From: Mucilaginibacter empetricola
GTDB lineage: Bacteria > Bacteroidota > Bacteroidia > Sphingobacteriales > Sphingobacteriaceae
Direction of reading: 5' to 3'
DNA: 64,000 bases
NCBI RefSeq assembly: GCF_024808665.1
Contig: NZ_JANUBZ010000012.1
Location: 62,001 to 126,000 of the forward strand
The notes under the pieces were generated by a model. The model saw only the letters and a list, made by a program, of their open reading frames with translations. It searched no databases and was not told the origin of the DNA. Positions within the stretch are counted from its first letter, which is position 1. Each line of letters starts with the position of its first letter. Shown here in pieces: positions 53,182 through 63,903 of the stretch. A program made the translations under genes and the position numbers.

Positions 53182-54474
53182 ATGAAAAAGAAAACCGAAG
53201 TTGCCGCTAAGATTAAAGGTTTTTGGCGGGTTCTTGGACCAGGCCTGGTTACCGGCGCTGCCGATGATGATCCATCAGGCATTGCTACCTATTCACAAAC
53301 CGGGGCCCAGTTTGGATATGGCCAACTATGGACGGCGCTTTATATGCTGCCCCTGATGATTGCCGTACAAGAGGCCTGCGCCCGGATAGGCCTGGTAACC
53401 GGAAAAGGTATTACCACTATTATAAAAGAAGAATATAGTCGTACCGTTTTGTATGCCACCGTAGGATTGGTAGTTATTGCCAATACCATTAATATAGGGG
53501 CCGATTTAGGTGCTATGGCGGCGGCAGCACAGCTTTTGGTGCCTTTACCTTTTATTGCACTTACTTTGGGCTTCACCGTTATCATTTTATTACTCGAGGT
53601 ATTCACCAATTATAAGGTCTATTCAAAAATATTGAAGTGGTTGGCGGTGGCATTATTAGCCTATCCAATAACATTGTTTATTGTGCATCAGCCATGGGCT
53701 ACTGTTTTAAAAGCCACGGTGGTGCCCCATTTTGAACTTTCGTTTGCTTTCTTTTTTATTATTACGGGTGTTTTGGGTACAACCATTTCGCCGTACATGT
53801 TTTTCTGGGAAGCTTCGCAAGAAGTAGAAGAAGACAAGGAAAGGCACTTGATTAATGAGGGCATGACCAACATTAGCTGGATAAGCGTTAGAAAAATGCG
53901 TACCGACAATACCTTTGGTATGATAATTTCTGAATTTGCTACCTGGAGCATTATTGTTGTAGCGGCAACTGTTTTACATGCCAGCGGAGTTAGAGATGTA
54001 AATACCGCCGCCGATGCTGCTAAGGCTATTGAGCCTTTAGTACATACTTTTCCGCATGCGGGCTTTTTGTCAAAGCTCATATTTTCAATAGGTATTATAG
54101 GGTTGGGCTTATTGGCTATTCCCGTACTTTCGGGCTCGGCTGCTTATTCCGTGGCCGAGGCTTTTAATTGGCAGGCAAGTTTAAATCTGAAATTTAAAAA
54201 AGCAAAAGGCTTTTACGTAGTTATTATTGCGGCAACAGTTATTGGGCTTTTGTTAAATTTTGTAGGTGTTAATCCGGTAAAGGCATTGGTTTATGCGGCA
54301 GTATTAAATGGCGTTGCGGCTGTACCGCTTTTGTTTCTGATACTTAAAATAGCGGGAAGCGAAAAAATTATGGGCAAGTTTAAAAGTAAGTGGCCATCAA
54401 CAACTATACTTTGGATCACCTTTATTGCGATGGGTGCAGCAGCTGTTGGAATGTTCTTTACTATTTTCTCATAA
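53182..54474 (+). CDS. Nramp-related divalent metal transporter with altered signature motifs
   Basis: 430 residues with about eleven hydrophobic helices. The first-helix motif is DDDPSGI (Asp30, Pro31, Ser32, Gly33) where classical Nramp proteins have DPGN. In the sixth helix classical AxxMPH is replaced by ISPYMFFWEASQEVEE, which lacks the metal-binding methionine. These changes place it among Nramp-related proteins that may carry other ions, such as magnesium, rather than among standard Mn/Fe importers. Membrane location is certain; ion specificity is not. Confidence 0.88.
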   Translation: MKKKTEVAAKIKGFWRVLGPGLVTGAADDDPSGIATYSQTGAQFGYGQLWTALYMLPLMIAVQEACARIGLVTGKGITTIIKEEYSRTVLYATVGLVVIANTINIGADLGAMAAAAQLLVPLPFIALTLGFTVIILLLEVFTNYKVYSKILKWLAVALLAYPITLFIVHQPWATVLKATVVPHFELSFAFFFIITGVLGTTISPYMFFWEASQEVEEDKERHLINEGMTNISWISVRKMRTDNTFGMIISEFATWSIIVVAATVLHASGVRDVNTAADAAKAIEPLVHTFPHAGFLSKLIFSIGIIGLGLLAIPVLSGSAAYSVAEAFNWQASLNLKFKKAKGFYVVIIAATVIGLLLNFVGVNPVKALVYAAVLNGVAAVPLLFLILKIAGSEKIMGKFKSKWPSTTILWITFIAMGAAAVGMFFTIFS

Positions 54475-54611: not shown

Positions 54612-55430
54612 TTAAACCGCATCAAAAAATCCGGATGTAATAAAATTCTTTTTCCATTGGGGCCAAATGGCATCTACGTCATCCGCTTTAAACTTGAAGC
54701 CGCTGATAAGATCTTGCTTTGCCAGTTCAACGGATTTGCCTTGCTGCATACGCAGCAAGAAATAATATTGTGCTGCTCTTATGGTAAATAAACCTAACTT
54801 ATAATTGCGCCGGGTTACTACACAATAGCTTTCTTCCGGAAATGGCAATTCGGGTTCCTGTTGCTGACTAAAATCCAAATAATATTTACAAACCGGGTAC
54901 TGGTGCTTAAAAAGATGAAACACTGGTGCTAATCGTAAATTTCCATCCGGTGTTTCTTCAGTTGCTATGGGTCGATGTTCTTCGGCCGGCTCATCAAAAA
55001 TAACGGACAGTGCATATTCAAAACCAGCCAGTTCAATCATAAAATCGGGCCAGGTTTCTTTTTCATTAAGCTCTTTGTCGGGCCGTGTTTCTTCTAAAAA
55101 AGTTGCAAATTTTTCGCCCAGCGTATTCAAAGTATAACTTTCTGATGGATAAGTATCCAGAAACTGATCGGCAAAGGCCTCAAACAAATCAGCTCCCAGA
55201 GCATAGGTAAGGGCACTAAATTGATTTTGCATACAGGCCCGCAGCCGGGCAATATAGCTATGCCTATATATATCCAAATGACGAATGGCATTTAATCTTT
55301 TCGAAGAATTAACCAGATCCTCAACCGTCACTGCTTCTCCTCCCCGGCTATTGGTTACCGGGACATATTTAACCAGCATACCCTGCATCCAGTTTTGCAA
55401 TTCAACCAAAGAAAAATCATCACCACCCAT
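54612..55430 (-). CDS. DUF2063-type partner protein of DUF692
   Basis: 272 residues. The N-terminal part matches the DUF2063 (putative DNA-binding) domain found beside DUF692 genes: RHLDIYRHSYIARLRACMQNQFSALTYALGADLFEAFADQFLDTYPSESYTLNTLGEKFATFLEE. By family it is the accessory subunit that helps the DUF692 enzyme bind its peptide or protein substrate, despite the DNA-binding name. Last gene of the operon, 14 bases after the DUF692 stop. Confidence 0.88.
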   Translation of the reverse strand: MGGDDFSLVELQNWMQGMLVKYVPVTNSRGGEAVTVEDLVNSSKRLNAIRHLDIYRHSYIARLRACMQNQFSALTYALGADLFEAFADQFLDTYPSESYTLNTLGEKFATFLEETRPDKELNEKETWPDFMIELAGFEYALSVIFDEPAEEHRPIATEETPDGNLRLAPVFHLFKHQYPVCKYYLDFSQQQEPELPFPEESYCVVTRRNYKLGLFTIRAAQYYFLLRMQQGKSVELAKQDLISGFKFKADDVDAIWPQWKKNFITSGFFDAV

Positions 55431-55444
55431 TTCCGCTATATTTT

Positions 55445-56386
55445 TTAATTGATCAGTACATTATTCACCAAAAAATCAACCGGGTTTGATACCGCAGCTT
55501 CGAACTGTTCACCGTGTTCAGTAATGTATTCTCCCGAGCCTATACTGCTCATAAATTGTTTGGCTTTCAGTAATTCTGCGTGGTATTCTTCAAATTCTGG
55601 GATATTGCTGTCCCACTCCAATAAGGTTGCAACGCTGCCGGTTAACTGCCAGGCTAAAGTGAACAGTTTCCAAACATCGTTAACCACTTTGCGGTCGTGA
55701 GTATCAATAATGTAATCGCCACAATGTTGATGACCTGCAATATGCATCTGCACAATACTATCGTGAGGTAATTGATTGATATAATGTACCGGGTCAAAAT
55801 CATTGTTAAAACCCGATACATATACATTATTTACATCAAGCAATAAGCCGCAGCCGGTTTCTTCGGTCATGTATCGCAAAAAATCCCATTCCGCTATGGT
55901 TGATTGTTTAAAGGTGAGGTAAGTGCTGGGGTTTTCAAAAACAACCGGGCGTTCTAAAAAGTCCTGCACCTGGTTAATCCTGCTGCAGATATGCTTTAGT
56001 GATTCTTCATTCAGCACAACCGGTAAAAGATCATGCGTATTCAGGCTGTTTACTCCTGTCCAGCACAAGTGGTCACTTATCCATAAAGGTTTCACCTCTG
56101 CCGCCAGCATTTTTAGTTTTGAAAGATATTCCAAATTCAGCGGATCAGTACTACCGATGGAAAGCGATACCCCATGCATTACTACTGGATACTTTTCTGC
56201 TACCTGCCTCAATACATGCCGCGGCCTGCCGCCCGAATCCATAAAGTTTTCCGAGATCACTTCAAACCAATCAACCGCAGGTTCGTGTTCAATGATATAG
56301 TTAAAATGCTTACTCCTGAGCCCTAAGCCTAAACCGGGATTGGGTAAGCATTTTACCGCGTTACTATAAGCTTCTTTATCTTTCAT
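55445..56386 (-). CDS. DUF692 multinuclear non-haem iron oxidase (MNIO)
   Basis: 313 residues, a TIM-barrel of the xylose-isomerase-like superfamily. Candidate metal-ligand positions are: Glu46 in SENFMD, His71 in MHGVSL, Asp105-His106 in SDHLCW, Glu151-Asn152 in FENPSTYL, Asp184 and Asn186 in LDVNNVYVSGFN, His215 in MHIAGH, Asp229-His230-Asp231 in IDTHDRK and Glu257 in LLEWDSN. By family (MbnB, TglH, BufB, ChrH) it oxidises cysteines or other residues of a substrate peptide with iron and oxygen. The cysteine-rich gene immediately upstream, 9 bases away, is the obvious substrate. Confidence 0.93.
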   Translation of the reverse strand: MKDKEAYSNAVKCLPNPGLGLGLRSKHFNYIIEHEPAVDWFEVISENFMDSGGRPRHVLRQVAEKYPVVMHGVSLSIGSTDPLNLEYLSKLKMLAAEVKPLWISDHLCWTGVNSLNTHDLLPVVLNEESLKHICSRINQVQDFLERPVVFENPSTYLTFKQSTIAEWDFLRYMTEETGCGLLLDVNNVYVSGFNNDFDPVHYINQLPHDSIVQMHIAGHQHCGDYIIDTHDRKVVNDVWKLFTLAWQLTGSVATLLEWDSNIPEFEEYHAELLKAKQFMSSIGSGEYITEHGEQFEAAVSNPVDFLVNNVLIN

Positions 56387-56395
56387 TAAAATGCT

Positions 56396-56995
56396 CTATT
56401 CCTTTTTTCCTTCGCAAAGTTCTTTGGCATGCACTTCTGGGTCATTGAAACCGAATGAGCAACGTTTATCGCCGCTGTTTCCGCATGAATCATAAGAACC
56501 CAATACCGATACCAGCCAGTTTTGAGGCGGACCACATTTATAGGGAGCCTTACCGTAACTTCTGTTTGCCTTTACCATTCGTTGTTCAAATAATTTGCGC
56601 GCCTGCAGCCAAACACTTTTGCCTGCATTTTCGCCAAGGGTGCTAAAACGTTCGGCCTGTATAGGTACGGCACAACTGCCCTGCCATGCGCACTCATTAG
56701 CGCCGGGTATAAGTTGTTGTTCAGCATCGCCATAAAGACCGCAACCGCCCTGGCCGCGGCAATTATTTAGGGTTTGGCAGTTATGTTGTTGTGCTGTGGC
56801 ACAATAGCCGGTGCCAGCGCAGTTATTGGTTCCGTTACGGTCATGTCCCTTGCAAGCATTAAGCCCCATACAAACATGCAGTTCAACAGAAGGCGTAACA
56901 CTTGTACCCGGCGCAGCACCTTGAGGGGCTGGTGCAGGAGCTGGCGGAGTTCCACCACAAAGTGATACGTTAGGATTATAATTTACAATAGCCAT
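56396..56995 (-). CDS. Cysteine-rich protein, likely substrate of the MNIO
   Basis: 199 residues, ATG start, no signal peptide or membrane segment visible. Fourteen cysteines (13, 42, 48, 59, 65, 73, 79, 85, 102, 108, 154, 171, 179, 194). Ten of these (42 to 108, counting shared ones) form five CX5C units: 42/48, 59/65, 73/79, 79/85 and 102/108, in a Gly/Asn-rich frame such as CMGLNACKG and CAGTGYC. A proline-rich segment (residues 16-35) precedes them. The C-terminal half has more spread cysteines and basic residues (SVWLQARKLFEQRMVKANRSYG). Likely a modified or metal-binding protein, perhaps like bufferins, but longer. Modification is inferred from the gene order only. Confidence 0.8.
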   Translation of the reverse strand: MAIVNYNPNVSLCGGTPPAPAPAPQGAAPGTSVTPSVELHVCMGLNACKGHDRNGTNNCAGTGYCATAQQHNCQTLNNCRGQGGCGLYGDAEQQLIPGANECAWQGSCAVPIQAERFSTLGENAGKSVWLQARKLFEQRMVKANRSYGKAPYKCGPPQNWLVSVLGSYDSCGNSGDKRCSFGFNDPEVHAKELCEGKKE

Positions 56996-57032
56996 AATAT
57001 GCTGTTTTGAGTATTATTAAATCAGTTAATTA

Positions 57033-58418
57033 TTAAAATTTACCACGTATTTTCAACGGAACATCCGGTAAATCAAGTATCCGTGGCCCCAGGTAGCTGA
57101 TGGTTGGATAAACTGCAACTGCCGTATTGTACAGATCAATCAATTGTGATTTTGGGCTGGATAGCAATCCAAACGGATAATCTTCAAAGGTTGGCACAGC
57201 CGCACAAACCTCTCCCTGCGGGGTTGTATAAGTAAGCTTCATAATATCGCCACAAATAGAGTTCAAAATAAAGATCATGGATTTATGAACCCCGAACATA
57301 AATATCTCAAACTGGGTACTGCCTGCTTTCATATAACAGTTTTCAACCATTACAAACAGATAGGTATAAATACCATTTAACAAATCGGATACCGGGGCAA
57401 TATTTGACGGATAATCTACCGTTAAAGGGTTCAAAGGCACTTTAGTTACAAAATACTTGCTGATATCAACAACACCAATATCCAAGCTGTTAAATTTGTT
57501 CGACAGGGTTTTATAGTGGCAATATATCTGGGCAAATTTTTCAAAATGGCACAGTTCCTTTTTATCTTTATCATCAAAATCAGCCGGAACTATTGCTGTG
57601 CAATCTACCGAGCCATCCGGGTTTAAGCCGGGTACATCTTTTGTACCCTCGCCCTGGTCAACAATACAGGTAATAGCATGCAGGGCCGAATCTCTGTCAA
57701 AAACATATAAAAGATCGCCGCTGTCTTCTGCATTGGTAAAATGTGGTTTGTGATCCTTATCGTAATAAACGGTATCAATATTATTCTGTGCGTAATAACC
57801 TTTGCCCGGCAGCAATTGCGGCGAATGGGTATTATACGGCAGATCATTAGTGGCAATGCATTCCTTAATCATGTCATAAAACTGACCAATGGTTTTGTAA
57901 GGGATGGGCGCCTGTAGCAGGCCGACATCAGCCAAAGGATCAGGACTTTCAATCTTTAAAAATGTCTCTAACTGTTTAAGCGAGAAACCTGCCTTATTTA
58001 TCCAGAAAACGGGTTCGTGTCCCGGTAAACAAGTGGGCCAAACACTTGGCGATTTACCTACCAGATCGGGCAGGCCTGCAAGCGCCTGTTTTAAGTTTGA
58101 TGATAGCGCCATGTGCAGCATCTCTTCAATTACTACACTCATAATTAAAGCACCGGCTTTATTAGCATACACCATAATCTCCGCCGAAAGGTCAAGCGCA
58201 ATAGCGCTGGCATCAGCAACAGATTTGCCGCTTTTAACCAGTTCCTGTACCAGCGAACCACTAATAGCGTCCTGATCGGGTGAGCGGTTAATCGAATAAT
58301 AAGTGTACAAATAAACGGGGATGGTGGCAATTTCAATTTCAATTGCCTGCTGAATAGCATCTCCCAGGTTAGCGGGTGTTACCTCGCTTTCCTTTTTGAA
58401 AAATAGGTTTTGTGACAT
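57033..58418 (-). CDS. VioB-type ferritin-like protein
   Basis: 461 residues from ATG 58418; the longer frame starts at TTG 58436. The N-terminal 200 residues match the ferritin-like domain of the VioB/iminophenyl-pyruvate dimer synthase family: LGDAIQQAIEIEIATIPVYLYTYYSI and VVIEEMLHMALSSNLKQALAG, with Glu and EExxH carboxylate-bridged iron ligands. The rest is a domain I do not recognise, with several cysteines (STVDCTA, ELCHFEKFAQIYCHY, SICGDIM). First gene of the operon, 37 bases before the cysteine-rich gene. It could supply a second oxidation on the same product or store iron for the MNIO. Confidence 0.85.
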   Translation of the reverse strand: MSQNLFFKKESEVTPANLGDAIQQAIEIEIATIPVYLYTYYSINRSPDQDAISGSLVQELVKSGKSVADASAIALDLSAEIMVYANKAGALIMSVVIEEMLHMALSSNLKQALAGLPDLVGKSPSVWPTCLPGHEPVFWINKAGFSLKQLETFLKIESPDPLADVGLLQAPIPYKTIGQFYDMIKECIATNDLPYNTHSPQLLPGKGYYAQNNIDTVYYDKDHKPHFTNAEDSGDLLYVFDRDSALHAITCIVDQGEGTKDVPGLNPDGSVDCTAIVPADFDDKDKKELCHFEKFAQIYCHYKTLSNKFNSLDIGVVDISKYFVTKVPLNPLTVDYPSNIAPVSDLLNGIYTYLFVMVENCYMKAGSTQFEIFMFGVHKSMIFILNSICGDIMKLTYTTPQGEVCAAVPTFEDYPFGLLSSPKSQLIDLYNTAVAVYPTISYLGPRILDLPDVPLKIRGKF

Positions 58419-58608
58419 AAAGGTTAGGTTAATCAACAGAAAATTGTTCTCTGTTTATTTTTACTAAATTAGAAAATAAAGCTTCAACAAAAAAAATAAA
58501 AACACACATTTTTTATGCCTCTATTTATACTTTAAAAGAGCTTTATATTAATAAGCGGGATGCAAATCTATTGCCTATTCGTTAAATTATTTATAGATAT
58601 TTATTATC

Positions 58609-59638: not shown

Positions 59639-59856
59639 TTCCTCTACCCCCTTCTATCGCCCTCAAAGCAAAGCATATAAATACTAATTATCAATATTTT
59701 AAGTAGATACACCAGTAACACTTAGCTTTATATTCCTTTTGTAACAAATTCTTTAAGGAAAAAATATTCAAAAACAATTTGAGCCTGTTTCCATTTATAG
59801 AATTTGATATAAAACATAATGTTAAATTAATTATTTGTGCTATTTATTTTTCAATA

Positions 59857-61590
59857 ATGACTAACCATCATCATAAAAACAAAAAAACTAAATTCAATTA
59901 TCCTCAAATACCAAAAACACCAACCGGTATTACCGGCCTCGATGAAATAACCGGTGGAGGCATTCCGACGGGACGACCAACCCTAATTTGCGGCGGAGCC
60001 GGCTGTGGCAAAACGCTGATGTCGTTGGAATTTATTGTACGGGGAGCTACCGAATTTAATGAACCCGGCGTGTTTATGGCCTTTGAGGAAAAAGCTGCCG
60101 AGCTGGCCATGAATGTAACCTCATTAGGTTTCGACCTGGTAAAACTTCAGGAAGAGAAAAAACTAAAAGTTGATTATGTACATATTGACCGGAGCGAAAT
60201 TGAAGAAACCGGGGAGTACGACCTGGAAGGCTTGTTTATCCGTTTGGGTTACGCTATTGACAGCATAGGCGCCAAGCGTGTTGTATTGGATACTGTTGAA
60301 AACCTTTTTTTGGGCTTAACCAATCAGGGTATATTACGTGCCGAATTGCGCAGATTATTTACCTGGTTAAAAGAAAAAGGAGTAACAGCCATCATTACCG
60401 GCGAACGTGGTGAGGGCAATACCTTTACTCGCCAGGGCCTGGAAGAATATGTTTCTGACTGCGTTATATTGCTTGACCACAGGGTTATCAATCAAATATC
60501 AACCCGCCGTTTGCGTATCTTAAAATACCGGGGATCATTACATGGCACCAACGAGTATCCTTTTTTAATTGATGAGGATGGTATAGCTGTATTACCGGTA
60601 ACTTCCCTCAATCTCGAAAAAGACGTATCGACTGAAAGGGTTTCATCCGGCATCCCCGCACTTGATAAAATGCTGGACAACAAAGGATTTTTTAAAGGAG
60701 GCAGTGTGTTGGTTTCGGGCTCGGCTGGCACAGGTAAAACAAGTATAGCTGCCTGCTTTGCAAACGAAATCTGCAAACAACAAAAACGCTGCCTGTATTT
60801 TGCTTTTGAAGAATCGCCAAAGCAAATTATTCGTAACATGAAATCAATCAGCGTTAATTTGCAGCAATATATTGATAACGATTCGCTATTGTTTCATGCT
60901 TCCAGACCAACACTTCATGGGTTGGAGCAGCATTTGGTAGCGATGTATAAAATTATCAAAAACTTTAAACCCGATGCAGTGATCATTGATCCGATAACCA
61001 ATTTAGTAACTATTGGTACGGTTAGCGAAGTAAAATCTATGCTGATAAGGCTGATAGATTTTTTACAGGAGGAACAGATAACGGTAATGTTTACAGCGCT
61101 GAGCTTAAATTCTGTGGTTAATGAACAAACTGACGAAGGTGTTTCATCATTAGTTGATTCCTGGCTTTTGGTAAGGGATATTGAATTTAACGGAGAACGC
61201 AACAGGGGTATGTACATCATGAAATCGCGCGGAATGAGACATTCCAACCAGGTTAGGGAATTTATTATTACCGATGATGGGATTGATTTGGTTGATGTTT
61301 ACCTCGGCCCTGAGGGCGTACTCATTGGTTCGGCCCGCGAAGCACAAAGGCTACAGGAAAAAACCGGAGAAGTATTACGCGGCAATGCGGTTAATATGAA
61401 GGACCGGGAAATTGATCGTAAACGAAAAATGCTGGAGGCAAAAATTGCGAACCTTCAATCGGAATTTGAATCGGCCGAAGACGAACTGAATAAAATATCT
61501 GTTGAAGAAGAACTAATAAAAAAAGTATCCGAAAATAATCGTGATGCATTAACAAAACTTAGAGGTGGTGATAAAGCTTCTTCTAAATAA
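59857..61590 (+). CDS. kaiC: KaiC-family double RecA-domain ATPase
   Basis: 577 residues from ATG 59857; the longer frame from TTG 59779 is not needed. Two RecA-like domains. CI has Walker A GGAGCGKT (46-53) and EE at 77-78; CII has GSAGTGKT (288-295) and EE at 318-319. In the place of the phosphorylated Ser431-Thr432 of cyanobacterial KaiC there is Ser430-Ser431 (GVSSLVDSW), so autophosphorylation is possible. A C-terminal coiled coil (residues 510-565) follows, where KaiA-binding tails are in cyanobacteria. By family a hexameric ATPase with a slow autokinase cycle. It leads an operon with two kaiB genes and a histidine kinase. Confidence 0.92.
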
Positions 61591-61604
61591 GAAAAAAAAG
61601 AATA

Positions 61605-61895
61605 ATGGACTCTCCCGAAAATAAATATGAATTAAGGCTATATGTTGCCGGTAAAACAGCAAAGTCTGTAACGGCCTTAACCAATTTAAAAAAATATTGC
61701 GAAGAACACTTGAAAGGGCAATACGTTATAGAGGTAATAGATTTACTGGTGCAGCCTCAGCTGGCAGAAGGCGATCAGATTTTTGCTATACCAACATTGG
61801 TACGAAAAGTACCGGAGCCTATCAGGAAAATTATAGGCGACCTATCAAACGAAGAAAAAGTATTGGTAGGTTTAAACATACGCCCGGTAAACTAA
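61605..61895 (+). CDS. kaiB: KaiB-family protein 1
   Basis: 96 residues, standard KaiB length. [74 protein letters not shown] is the whole KaiB fold, with the AIPTL cis-proline loop. By family it binds the CI ring of phosphorylated KaiC after a fold switch. 14 bases after kaiC. Confidence 0.94.
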
Positions 61896-61901
61896 ATTAT
61901 A

Positions 61902-62225
61902 ATGACTGAAAAACAGCAGGTTACAGAAGAAAGCAATTCAATTAATGAGGATGTTTACCAATTACGTTTGTTTGTAACAGGGGCCACACCAAATTCGTCG
62001 CGGGCTATATCCAACTTAAAACAGGTTTGCGAAACCCACTTAAAAGGAAGGTATGAACTGGAAATAATTGACGTTTATCAACAGCCTTTAATAGCGGAGA
62101 GCGAACAGATAATTGCACTGCCCATGCTGATAAAAAAACTCCCTTTTCCGGAAAGAAGGCTGATTGGCGATATGTCAAATACAGATAAATTACTCAGAGG
62201 GCTCAGCATAACAGCTAATACATAA
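61902..62225 (+). CDS. KaiB-family protein 2
   Basis: 107 residues. Same fold as the first (YQLRLFVTGATPNSSRAISNLKQVCETHLKGRYELEIIDVYQQPLIAESEQIIALPMLIKKLPFPERRLIGDMS) but with a longer charged N-terminus and clear sequence divergence, so it is not a recent copy. It may compete with or replace KaiB1 on KaiC, or bind the following kinase. 6 bases after KaiB1. Confidence 0.92.
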   Translation: MTEKQQVTEESNSINEDVYQLRLFVTGATPNSSRAISNLKQVCETHLKGRYELEIIDVYQQPLIAESEQIIALPMLIKKLPFPERRLIGDMSNTDKLLRGLSITANT

Positions 62226-62226
62226 C

Positions 62227-63903
62227 ATGGAACAAGCAAAAATAACATATGAGCAGTTATTGAGCGAAAAGAAAGAACTAACGCTGCAACTGGAGGAAGC
62301 CAATGATACTATTGAGGCTATCCGCACAGGGCAGGTTGACGCCTTAATAGTAAATAATGGCGAAAGCCACCAATTATACACACTAAAAACTGCCGACCAA
62401 ACTTACCGGGTCTTTATTCAGAAAATGAATGAAGGCGCGGTCACTATTAATCGCGAGGGGTTGATTTTGTATAGCAATTCAAGATTTGCCAATATGGTAA
62501 AAATGCCATTGGAAAAAACTATTGGTTTGGTTTTTAACGGCTTTATAGCGCCATCATCCCGGCAGGCATTTGAATCATTAATAGACGATGCATGGGAGGA
62601 AGATTGTAAAGATGAAATTGAGTTGATGGATGCAGATAGTCAACTGATCCCATGCCTTTTATCCTGTAATACACTCGAACTGGACGAAGGTGTTGCCTTA
62701 AGTCTTATTCTTACCGATCTCTCTATATTGAAAGAGACGGAAAATCAGCTCCGGATAAAAAACCTGCAATTGGCGGCGGCCCATATGGCTACCGAAAAGT
62801 TAAATAATGAGTTAGAGGACATAGTAAAAGATCGGACCAATGAACTATTTTTAAGTCGCGAACATTTTAAGTACCTGGCAAACAACATCCCCCAAATGAC
62901 CTGGACCAATCTGCCCAATGGCGAGATTAATTATTTCAACCAGCAATGGTACACTTATACTGGTTTGGGTTTAGAAGAAACACGGGAGTTTGGTTGGAGA
63001 GGCATTCTGCACCCCGACGATGTGACCCCCACTTACGAGAAATATACTACAGGATTACAACAGGGTGAGGTTTTTGAGATTGAGAATCGTTATAAACGAA
63101 TAGCAGATGATAGCTACAGGTGGCATTTAAACCGCGCCGTACCCCTACGCAACGAGGATGGCGAGATTGTATATTGGGTAGGTACCGCTACAGATATTGA
63201 GGACCAGAAAAAAGAGATGGAAAAGCGGGATGAATTTATTGGCATTGCCAGCCATGAATTAAAAACGCCGTTAACCAGCCTTAAAGGATACCTGCAATTA
63301 ATCACTTCCTACAAAAAAGAAAATATTCCACCGGCTGTTACACAATATATTAATAAGGCTAATAACGCCTTGAGCAAATTGCAGTTATTGATTAATGACC
63401 TGCTTGATGTAAGTAAAATAAAGGCCGGTAAAATGGAGTATGAGTTTATAAATGTAAACCTTACCCAATTGATAGAAAGCTGCGTAGAAAATGCGCAGCA
63501 TATATACCCCGAAAACACTTTTATGAATGAAGACGGCAATCAATACCTTATTAAAGGCAATGCCGAACGATTGGAACAGGTTTTAATGAACCTGATAAAC
63601 AATGCCGTTAAATACTCGCAGGAAAATAAAACGGTGATCATTAAAACATCATTACATGATGATAGGGTGCGTGTTTCGGTTATTGACTTTGGAATAGGCC
63701 TCTCGGAAGATCAGAAAGAAAAGATATTCGAGCGTTTTTATCGCGTTGAGGATAAAAGATTTATGACAGGCGGTTTGGGCATGGGTTTATACATTTCTGC
63801 GGGCATCATCCAAAACCACAAAGGCAAAATTGGTGTTGATAGCGAATTAGGCAAAGGTGCAAGCTTTTATTTCGAACTACCTTTAACCAAAATTGAAAAG
63901 TAA
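62227..63903 (+). CDS. PAS-domain histidine kinase of the kai operon
   Basis: 558 residues, cytoplasmic. A short coiled coil (residues 1-45), PAS 1 (about 50-170), a coiled coil (170-215), PAS 2 of the PAS_3 type (about 215-330, with WTNLPNGEINYFNQQWYTYTG and WVGTATDIEDQKKEMEKRDE), H-box IASHELKTPLTSLKGYLQL with His343, N-box LINNAVKYSQ, and ATP motifs DFGIGLSEDQ and GGLGMGLYIS. It starts one base after the stop of the second kaiB gene and so belongs to that operon. It is a candidate output kinase of the KaiBC module, in the position of SasA but without a KaiB-like sensor domain of its own. Confidence 0.93.
   Translation: MEQAKITYEQLLSEKKELTLQLEEANDTIEAIRTGQVDALIVNNGESHQLYTLKTADQTYRVFIQKMNEGAVTINREGLILYSNSRFANMVKMPLEKTIGLVFNGFIAPSSRQAFESLIDDAWEEDCKDEIELMDADSQLIPCLLSCNTLELDEGVALSLILTDLSILKETENQLRIKNLQLAAAHMATEKLNNELEDIVKDRTNELFLSREHFKYLANNIPQMTWTNLPNGEINYFNQQWYTYTGLGLEETREFGWRGILHPDDVTPTYEKYTTGLQQGEVFEIENRYKRIADDSYRWHLNRAVPLRNEDGEIVYWVGTATDIEDQKKEMEKRDEFIGIASHELKTPLTSLKGYLQLITSYKKENIPPAVTQYINKANNALSKLQLLINDLLDVSKIKAGKMEYEFINVNLTQLIESCVENAQHIYPENTFMNEDGNQYLIKGNAERLEQVLMNLINNAVKYSQENKTVIIKTSLHDDRVRVSVIDFGIGLSEDQKEKIFERFYRVEDKRFMTGGLGMGLYISAGIIQNHKGKIGVDSELGKGASFYFELPLTKIEK

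Follow-up and report, generated by a model that had tools for sequence, protein, structure and literature searches.

A conserved four-gene cassette joins an MNIO enzyme and its presumed cysteine-rich substrate to a ferritin-like protein in Mucilaginibacter empetricola

Introduction

MNIO (DUF692) enzymes are known for their action on peptides, of which the largest families are exported copper binders. The closest described systems are the Buf2 bufferins, BufA2/BufB/BufC, which the covered passages of PMC13097082 place among the captophorins; according to the same passages, the MNIO-PME1 pairs of BufB and the captophorins yield 5-thiooxazoles, and whether this is the sole product of such pairs is left open there. 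Another described class, adjamnio-I, comprises precursors of 122-293 amino acids with 8-21 Cys and no signal peptide, encoded before the MNIO (PMC12452194, Table 2), and signal-less precursors correlate with PME-type 2 partners in the covered part of that source. Here we describe a cassette of four genes in a 64,000-nucleotide stretch of Mucilaginibacter empetricola (GCF_024808665.1, contig NZ_JANUBZ010000012.1, forward-strand positions 62,001 to 126,000; hereafter the window), which encode a ferritin-like protein (FER), a Cys-rich protein (CYS), an MNIO and its partner protein (PME). We read the four genes as one non-secreted metalloprotein together with its maturation machinery, in which mature CYS would be a subunit of FER, and we put the probability of this reading at roughly 0.55.

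The cassette resembles Buf2 in its BufB-type MNIO, which scores above the curated cut-off, in its DUF2063 (PME-type 1) partner, in the gene order substrate-MNIO-partner, and in the CX5C-type cysteine pattern. In contrast to BufA2, CYS has no signal-like N-terminus, is longer, and carries 11 fixed Cys; the cassette adds a FER gene or fusion, and its MNIOs group apart, with Gly, Ser, Asn, or Ala after Asp259 in 75 of 80 where those beside BufA2-like genes have Asp in 8 of 10. Bufferin and captophorin precursors are recognized by the BufA2 model cut-off and a Sec signal peptide; CYS lies below the former and, judged by hydropathy only, lacks the latter. Their hallmarks are a Cys-derived thiooxazole, absorbance near 305 nm, and copper binding.

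Adjamnio-I, compared by description only, also agrees with CYS, which has 199 residues and 14 Cys, shows no signal by hydropathy, and precedes the MNIO; this class may contain the CYS precursor. However, the partner listed for adjamnio-I in PMC12452194 is PME-type 2, with no DUF2063 signature, whereas DUF2063 was found in 39 of 39 cassette partners scanned; the cassette therefore pairs a presumed precursor that lacks a signal with a partner of PME-type 1, contrary to the correlation given in that source. No pairing of an MNIO with a ferritin-like protein was found in the literature on MNIO/DUF692, bufferins, captophorins, PF12902, VioB-like proteins, and DUF2063, of which subscription papers were mostly uncovered, and the word "ferritin" is absent from the main text of PMC12452194 and from the covered passages of PMC13097082. 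The original prediction knew of no described system with these four genes, and none was found in this literature, though adjamnio-I may include the CYS precursor. The parts are of known kinds, and the combination of bufferin/captophorin-type machinery with FER is undescribed in the literature covered. A conserved, non-secreted presumed substrate tied or fused to a ferritin-like enzyme suggests that MNIO chemistry may also build enzyme parts, and the cassette is a small system open to direct co-expression tests.

The Four Genes in the Window

Four genes in the order FER, CYS, MNIO, and PME on one strand, with gaps of 37 (FER/CYS), 9 (CYS/MNIO), and 14 (MNIO/PME) bases, had been proposed for this locus, and all of this was confirmed on the sequence. 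All four frames are open and run on the minus strand towards lower coordinates (Table 1); near the ATG of FER there is an in-frame TTG at 58436. Pfam assigned FER to PF12902 Ferritin-like (123.2 bits, cut-off 22.3) and the MNIO to PF05114 MbnB_TglH_ChrH (355.8 bits, cut-off 25); CYS had no Pfam match. The MNIO also matched the NCBIfam model NF050167 MNIO_BufB with 358.4 bits, above its cut-off of 310, and is the sole PF05114 match in the host genome.

Table 1. Positions of the cassette genes, the CYS motifs, and an additional neighboring gene (window coordinates unless a locus is given; the 81 rows are the 80 loci kept and the window)
Feature	Coordinates	Strand	Details
FER, ferritin-like PF12902, 461 amino acids	57033..58418	-	ATG at 58418; candidate diiron ligands E29, E99xxH102, E257, E288xxH291
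CYS, 199-amino-acid Cys-rich protein, presumed MNIO substrate	56396..56995	-	no signal-like hydrophobic stretch
CYS CX5C motif C42-C48 (CMGLNAC)	56852..56872	-	both Cys in 81/81 rows
CYS CX5C motif C59-C65 (CAGTGYC)	56801..56821	-	both Cys in 81/81 rows
CYS double CX5C motif C73-C79-C85 (CQTLNNCRGQGGC)	56741..56779	-	all three Cys in 81/81 rows
CYS CX5C motif C102-C108 (CAWQGSC)	56672..56692	-	both Cys in 81/81 rows
CYS C-terminal pair C171-C179 (CGNSGDKRC)	56459..56485	-	C171 in 81/81, C179 in 80/81 rows
MNIO, PF05114, BufB-type	55445..56386	-	presumed catalytic-base Asp259 at 55610-55612, then Ser260
PME, DUF2063 (PF09836), MNIO partner protein	54612..55430	-	60.6 bits, cut-off 27.2
Possible fifth gene	L067:5132-6493; L058:4790-6382; L060:5249-6346; L065:4692-5789; L039:5736-6590		also L028, L049, L053, L056

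Conservation and Distribution of the Cassette

A protein search with CYS gave at least 459 relatives at E 0.001 among the 600 candidates scored. The genome scan was seeded with a CYS-only alignment and found 132 relatives, of which 80 loci were kept and 52 went unseen; alignments A1-A3, A5, and A6 are hand-picked subsets. FER, CYS, and the MNIO occur in the same order and on the same strand in all 80 loci. A survey for DUF692 genes beside CYS homologues had been proposed as a check on the substrate role of CYS, and with an MNIO adjoining CYS at every locus kept, its outcome is the opposite of homologues found mostly without DUF692. PME follows downstream in 78 of the 80 loci, and at the two exceptions (L024 and L029) the sequence ends inside or shortly after the MNIO. 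The median distances are 34 bases between FER and CYS in the 71 split loci (69 at ≤150), 8.5 bases between CYS and MNIO in 80 loci (72 at ≤150), and -4 bases between MNIO and PME in 78 loci (77 at ≤150), some extreme negative values stemming from over-long starts of open reading frames (ORFs). These spacings are operon-like.

FER and CYS are fused into one open frame in 9 of the 80 loci, which belong to two named strains (Paraburkholderia terricola LMG 20594 and Methyloglobulus morosus KoM1) and seven metagenome-assembled genomes. On the MNIO tree described below, the fused or split state changed at least four times (7 fused among 40 rows; some forks unresolved). We also scanned 77 same-strand ORFs lying within 300 bases of the cassette, 41 before FER and 36 after PME, with one ORF per side; this count leaves out loci without such an ORF, and some of the ORFs may not be real genes. 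No Pfam family occurred in more than 3 of the 77 (Peptidase_S9 in 3, tyrosinase in 2, and THAP4 in 2).

The 80 loci are spread over Bacteroidota (43), Pseudomonadota (32), Acidobacteriota (3), and Actinomycetota (2). Strong CYS matches (≥193 bits) were present in 5 of the 296 genomes sampled from the host phylum (G000, G099, G166, G174, and G202), and strong FER matches (≥550 bits) in the same five. A sixth, weak CYS match in G192 is a BufA2-like protein adjoining an MNIO, and the weak partial FER matches in G210 and elsewhere in G166 represent different PF12902-like stretches. PF05114 was found in 21 of the 296 genomes (20 above the cut-off); an MNIO alone is therefore commoner than the cassette. 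Within the host genus, the cassette occurs in 2 of the 4 genomes shown, and in the class of the Caulobacter locus L078, CYS-profile matches occur in 7 of 289 genomes and are strong only in the chosen centre. Such a patchy spread suggests horizontal transfer or loss.

The Ferritin-like Protein FER

By conservation, E29, E99/H102, E257, and E288/H291 of FER form an E, ExxH, E, ExxH ligand pattern, which we take to be that of bacterioferritin; on this evidence FER keeps a full bacterioferritin-like diiron ligand set as a candidate metal site. A four-helix ferritin fold was seen in a fused FER-CYS relative. FER had been called a protein of the VioB type, and the part of this claim that stands is the PF12902 domain, which FER has in common with VioB and with Caulobacter CC_0557 (3hl1); VioB orthology was rejected, as the VioB equivalog model gave 22 bits against a cut-off of 1250. 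Neither an MNIO nor CYS was present in the short flanks of ten other PF12902 loci from the same genomes (L148-L154, L161, L172, and L173), whose match to FER is weak or nil. The promoter motif search upstream of FER gave one -7-like site and no pair.

The Cysteine-rich Protein CYS

The description of CYS as a CX5C-rich protein of 199 residues with 14 Cys proved correct. Five Cys pairs have the CX5C spacing (42-48, 59-65, 73-79, 79-85, and 102-108), against a mean of 0.89 in shuffles, and only 15 of 20,000 composition-keeping shuffles reached five. Eleven cysteines (42, 48, 59, 65, 73, 79, 85, 102, 108, 171, and 179) are present in at least 80 of the 81 rows, the C-terminal pair taking the form CGASGMSGA.SC elsewhere, for example in L067 and L075. 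No Sec-signal-like stretch was found by hydropathy, the only measure used, with a best 15-residue mean of 0.86 in the first 60 residues; on the same measure, the 81 CYS rows reach at most 1.43, compared with 1.76 to 2.44 in 14 BufA2-like rows. A sequence search against solved structures gave three matches, all at E 0.46 or worse.

Several comparisons point to a kinship with BufA2. The BufA2 model matched 34 of 43 CYS rows at E 0.01 or better (best 3.7e-6), and a CYS profile aligned to 14 BufA2-like proteins over 41 columns with 86% probability and E 4.8e-6. In the reverse direction, the CYS profile gave seven weak-match loci in six genomes (L199-L205); a BufA2-like ORF is present at all of them, and an MNIO occurs in the short stretch read at five. 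We read CYS as an enlarged relative of BufA2 that appears to have lost export; alternatively, the short Cys motifs of the two may have arisen by convergence. One of these BufA2-like proteins, in genome G419 (L206:7215-7574, minus strand), has the first Cys spacings of CYS, 5-10-5-7-5, together with a signal-like N-terminus, and is a possible link between BufA2 and CYS. In the 15 kb read, its gene is not accompanied by an MNIO; the only one of that genome is on another contig.

The MNIO and Its Partner

At least 80 of the 81 FER-CYS MNIOs retain such residues as H71, H106, E151, D184, H215, D228, H230, and D259, and the same His, Asp, and Glu positions occur in 27 to 30 of 30 other MNIOs. Asp259 is present in 80 of the 81 rows, the remaining row being a contig end. 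The MNIO tree contained 39 of the 80 loci and the window, plus 30 of 32 other MNIO matches (one partial and one fragment were dropped); 29 of these 30 come from cassette-bearing genomes, and many adjoin BufA1- or BufA2-like genes. A branch with support of 91/96 separates the 40 FER-CYS MNIOs from the 30 others, and in 89% of 200 bootstrap trees a single change sufficed for this grouping.

We take Asp259 to be the counterpart of FonB Asp249, from a shared E-x-D motif and not from an alignment. The residue after it is Gly, Ser, Asn, or Ala in 75 of 80 FER-CYS MNIOs and Asp in the other 5, while in the 30 comparison MNIOs it is Asp in 8, all beside a BufA2 match, and Gly, Ser, Asn, or Ala in 12. 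Among the ten MNIOs beside BufA2-like genes, the two without Asp have Ala (L121) and Glu (L135). Since Gly, Ser, Asn, or Ala also occurs in those 12 of the 30 comparison MNIOs, the site separates the FER-CYS group only from BufA2-type MNIOs. In FonB, the residue after the catalytic Asp governs which residues are tolerated around the target Cys (PMC13097082, covered passages), and residue 260 would, by the presumed correspondence, be the substrate-selectivity site. Its identities would fit a substrate whose cysteines precede varied residues, not Lys.

The 39 PME proteins scanned, taken from 79 partners and including that of the window, all matched PF09836 (DUF2063) at E 0.01 or better. As a further observation, 20 proteobacterial cassette genomes (of loci L022-L081) were searched, and more than one PF05114 match was present in 18; in many of them the extra MNIOs adjoin Buf1- or Buf2-like genes elsewhere in the genome. 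For L218 and L219, two high-scoring MNIOs of the host phylum, no convincing Cys-rich precursor was present among the ORFs listed in the short flanks.

Proposed Function and Alternative Explanations

In the proposed mechanism, the MNIO and its DUF2063 partner would bind CYS and oxidise cysteines in its CX5C segment, presumably to thiooxazoles as in bufferins. CYS, lacking a signal peptide by hydropathy, would stay cytosolic and, when mature, would join FER as a metal-binding or redox subunit, serving as its C-terminal domain in the fused loci. Copper as the bound metal is a guess by analogy, and the reaction, that of an O2- or peroxide-using oxidase, is likewise a guess. That the MNIO and PME oxidise CYS cysteines is very probable on sequence grounds: the role of CYS as substrate, already proposed in the original prediction, is supported by the MNIO at every locus kept and by the sub-cut-off likeness to BufA2, and the modification itself is predicted. 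Thiooxazoles are probably the product, because the MNIO-PME1 pairs studied so far make them (PMC13097082, covered passages). We lean towards mature CYS being a lasting subunit or domain of FER, because the two are fused in some loci, share a phyletic profile, and have no Pfam family in more than 3 of the 77 adjacent same-strand ORFs. More tentatively, and at less than even odds, an MNIO-made, thiooxazole-type metal site on separate or fused CYS would be a built-in cofactor of an intracellular diiron enzyme and not a secreted metallophore.

Several results weigh against this reading. The BufA2 model gave only 18.4 bits on CYS of the window, below its cut-off of 60, and a whole-genome search with it returned CYS in only 2 of 24 cassette genomes (L102 and L114), at E 0.001 and below the cut-off; 2 of the 43 CYS rows also match the exosporium protein CdeC (best E 0.002), and a Cys-rich composition can by itself produce weak matches. 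Over 78 loci, CYS is on average 59.9% identical to that of the window, less than the MNIO with 66.5%. The support of the MNIO group is unstarred, and several of the comparison rows are long-branched. The AlphaFold model of CYS has a mean predicted local distance difference test score of 56.6, with residues 44-83 under 50, and Foldseek with this low-confidence model gave no fold match at E 0.001; such a model is compatible with a folded half preceded by a flexible segment that would serve as substrate. The model of a fused FER-CYS protein is poor across much of CYS, and therefore shows no contact between the two. Fusion also occurs between enzymes and their own substrates, as in the borosins, which the loci with enzyme and substrate in one chain resemble; in the cassette, however, it is the ferritin-like protein that is fused, and the known type of modifier, the MNIO, is encoded apart.

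An alternative that we regard as unlikely, though it is the strongest of the rivals, is that FER is a second tailoring enzyme that oxidises CYS after the MNIO has acted on its cysteines, in cis where fused as in the borosins, to give a doubly modified protein. The constant linkage and the fusions would suit an enzyme joined to its substrate, and PF12902 is also the domain of VioB, an oxidative enzyme of a natural-product pathway that FER matches weakly. No processing or export gene is regularly adjacent, however, the top family being Peptidase_S9 with its 3 of 77 ORFs, and at 76 of 78 loci CYS is more identical to the window than FER is, which a variable product peptide would not be expected to show. 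That FER adds a second redox step or supplies iron, as first suggested for this locus, is possible, and a lasting FER-CYS partnership is somewhat more likely in view of the fusions and the absence of a regular processing or export gene.

It is improbable that the four genes form a cytosolic metal-stress system without a single composite enzyme, with modified CYS buffering copper or another soft metal while FER oxidises or stores iron or removes peroxide. The kinship of CYS with BufA2, the protection against copper ascribed to bufferins (PMC12452194, covered part), and the ferritin fold would all agree with it, but a fusion to FER would be superfluous for plain buffering, the adjacent same-strand ORFs show no metal-related Pfam family with any regularity, and an Nramp gene found in 8 loci is encoded on the opposite strand and only in close relatives of the host. 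Very unlikely, and the least probable of the rivals, is that CYS stays an unmodified disulphide, zinc, or iron-sulphur protein and that the MNIO has a different target. In its favor, the C-terminal half of CYS is the more confidently modelled and looks folded; against it, the MNIO stands beside CYS in 80 of 80 loci and keeps the His, Asp, and Glu positions common to other MNIOs, the host genome has no second PF05114 match, and the Cys pattern is BufA2-like.

Neighboring Genes and Other Observations

Among the 77 adjacent ORFs, the two tyrosinase matches belong to a copper enzyme family, and one further ORF matches tryptophan halogenase. The largest of the 25 commonest neighbor clusters listed is sensor-kinase-like and occurs on both sides in 15 of the 80 loci; others, in mixed positions, include an ABC-ATPase-like cluster (6 loci) and response regulators (7 and 5 loci). 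The Nramp-type metal transporter gene of the window (53182-54474, plus strand) converges on the cassette, and all 8 of the 80 loci with its cluster are the close relatives mentioned above. In 9 of the 80 loci, the cassette has a possible fifth gene as a neighbor, which in 5 of these immediately precedes FER on its strand (Table 1). The two members tested gave sub-threshold matches to the THAP4 heme-binding family (17.8 and 18.8 bits, cut-off 25), and no solved relative was found by sequence. The plasmid search gave no match at E 1e-5.

Elsewhere in the window, a KaiC-like ATPase (PF06745), two tandem KaiB-domain proteins (PF07689), and a PAS histidine kinase are encoded head to tail at 59779-63903 on the plus strand; by its domains, this is a Kai-type signalling cluster in a non-cyanobacterial genome.

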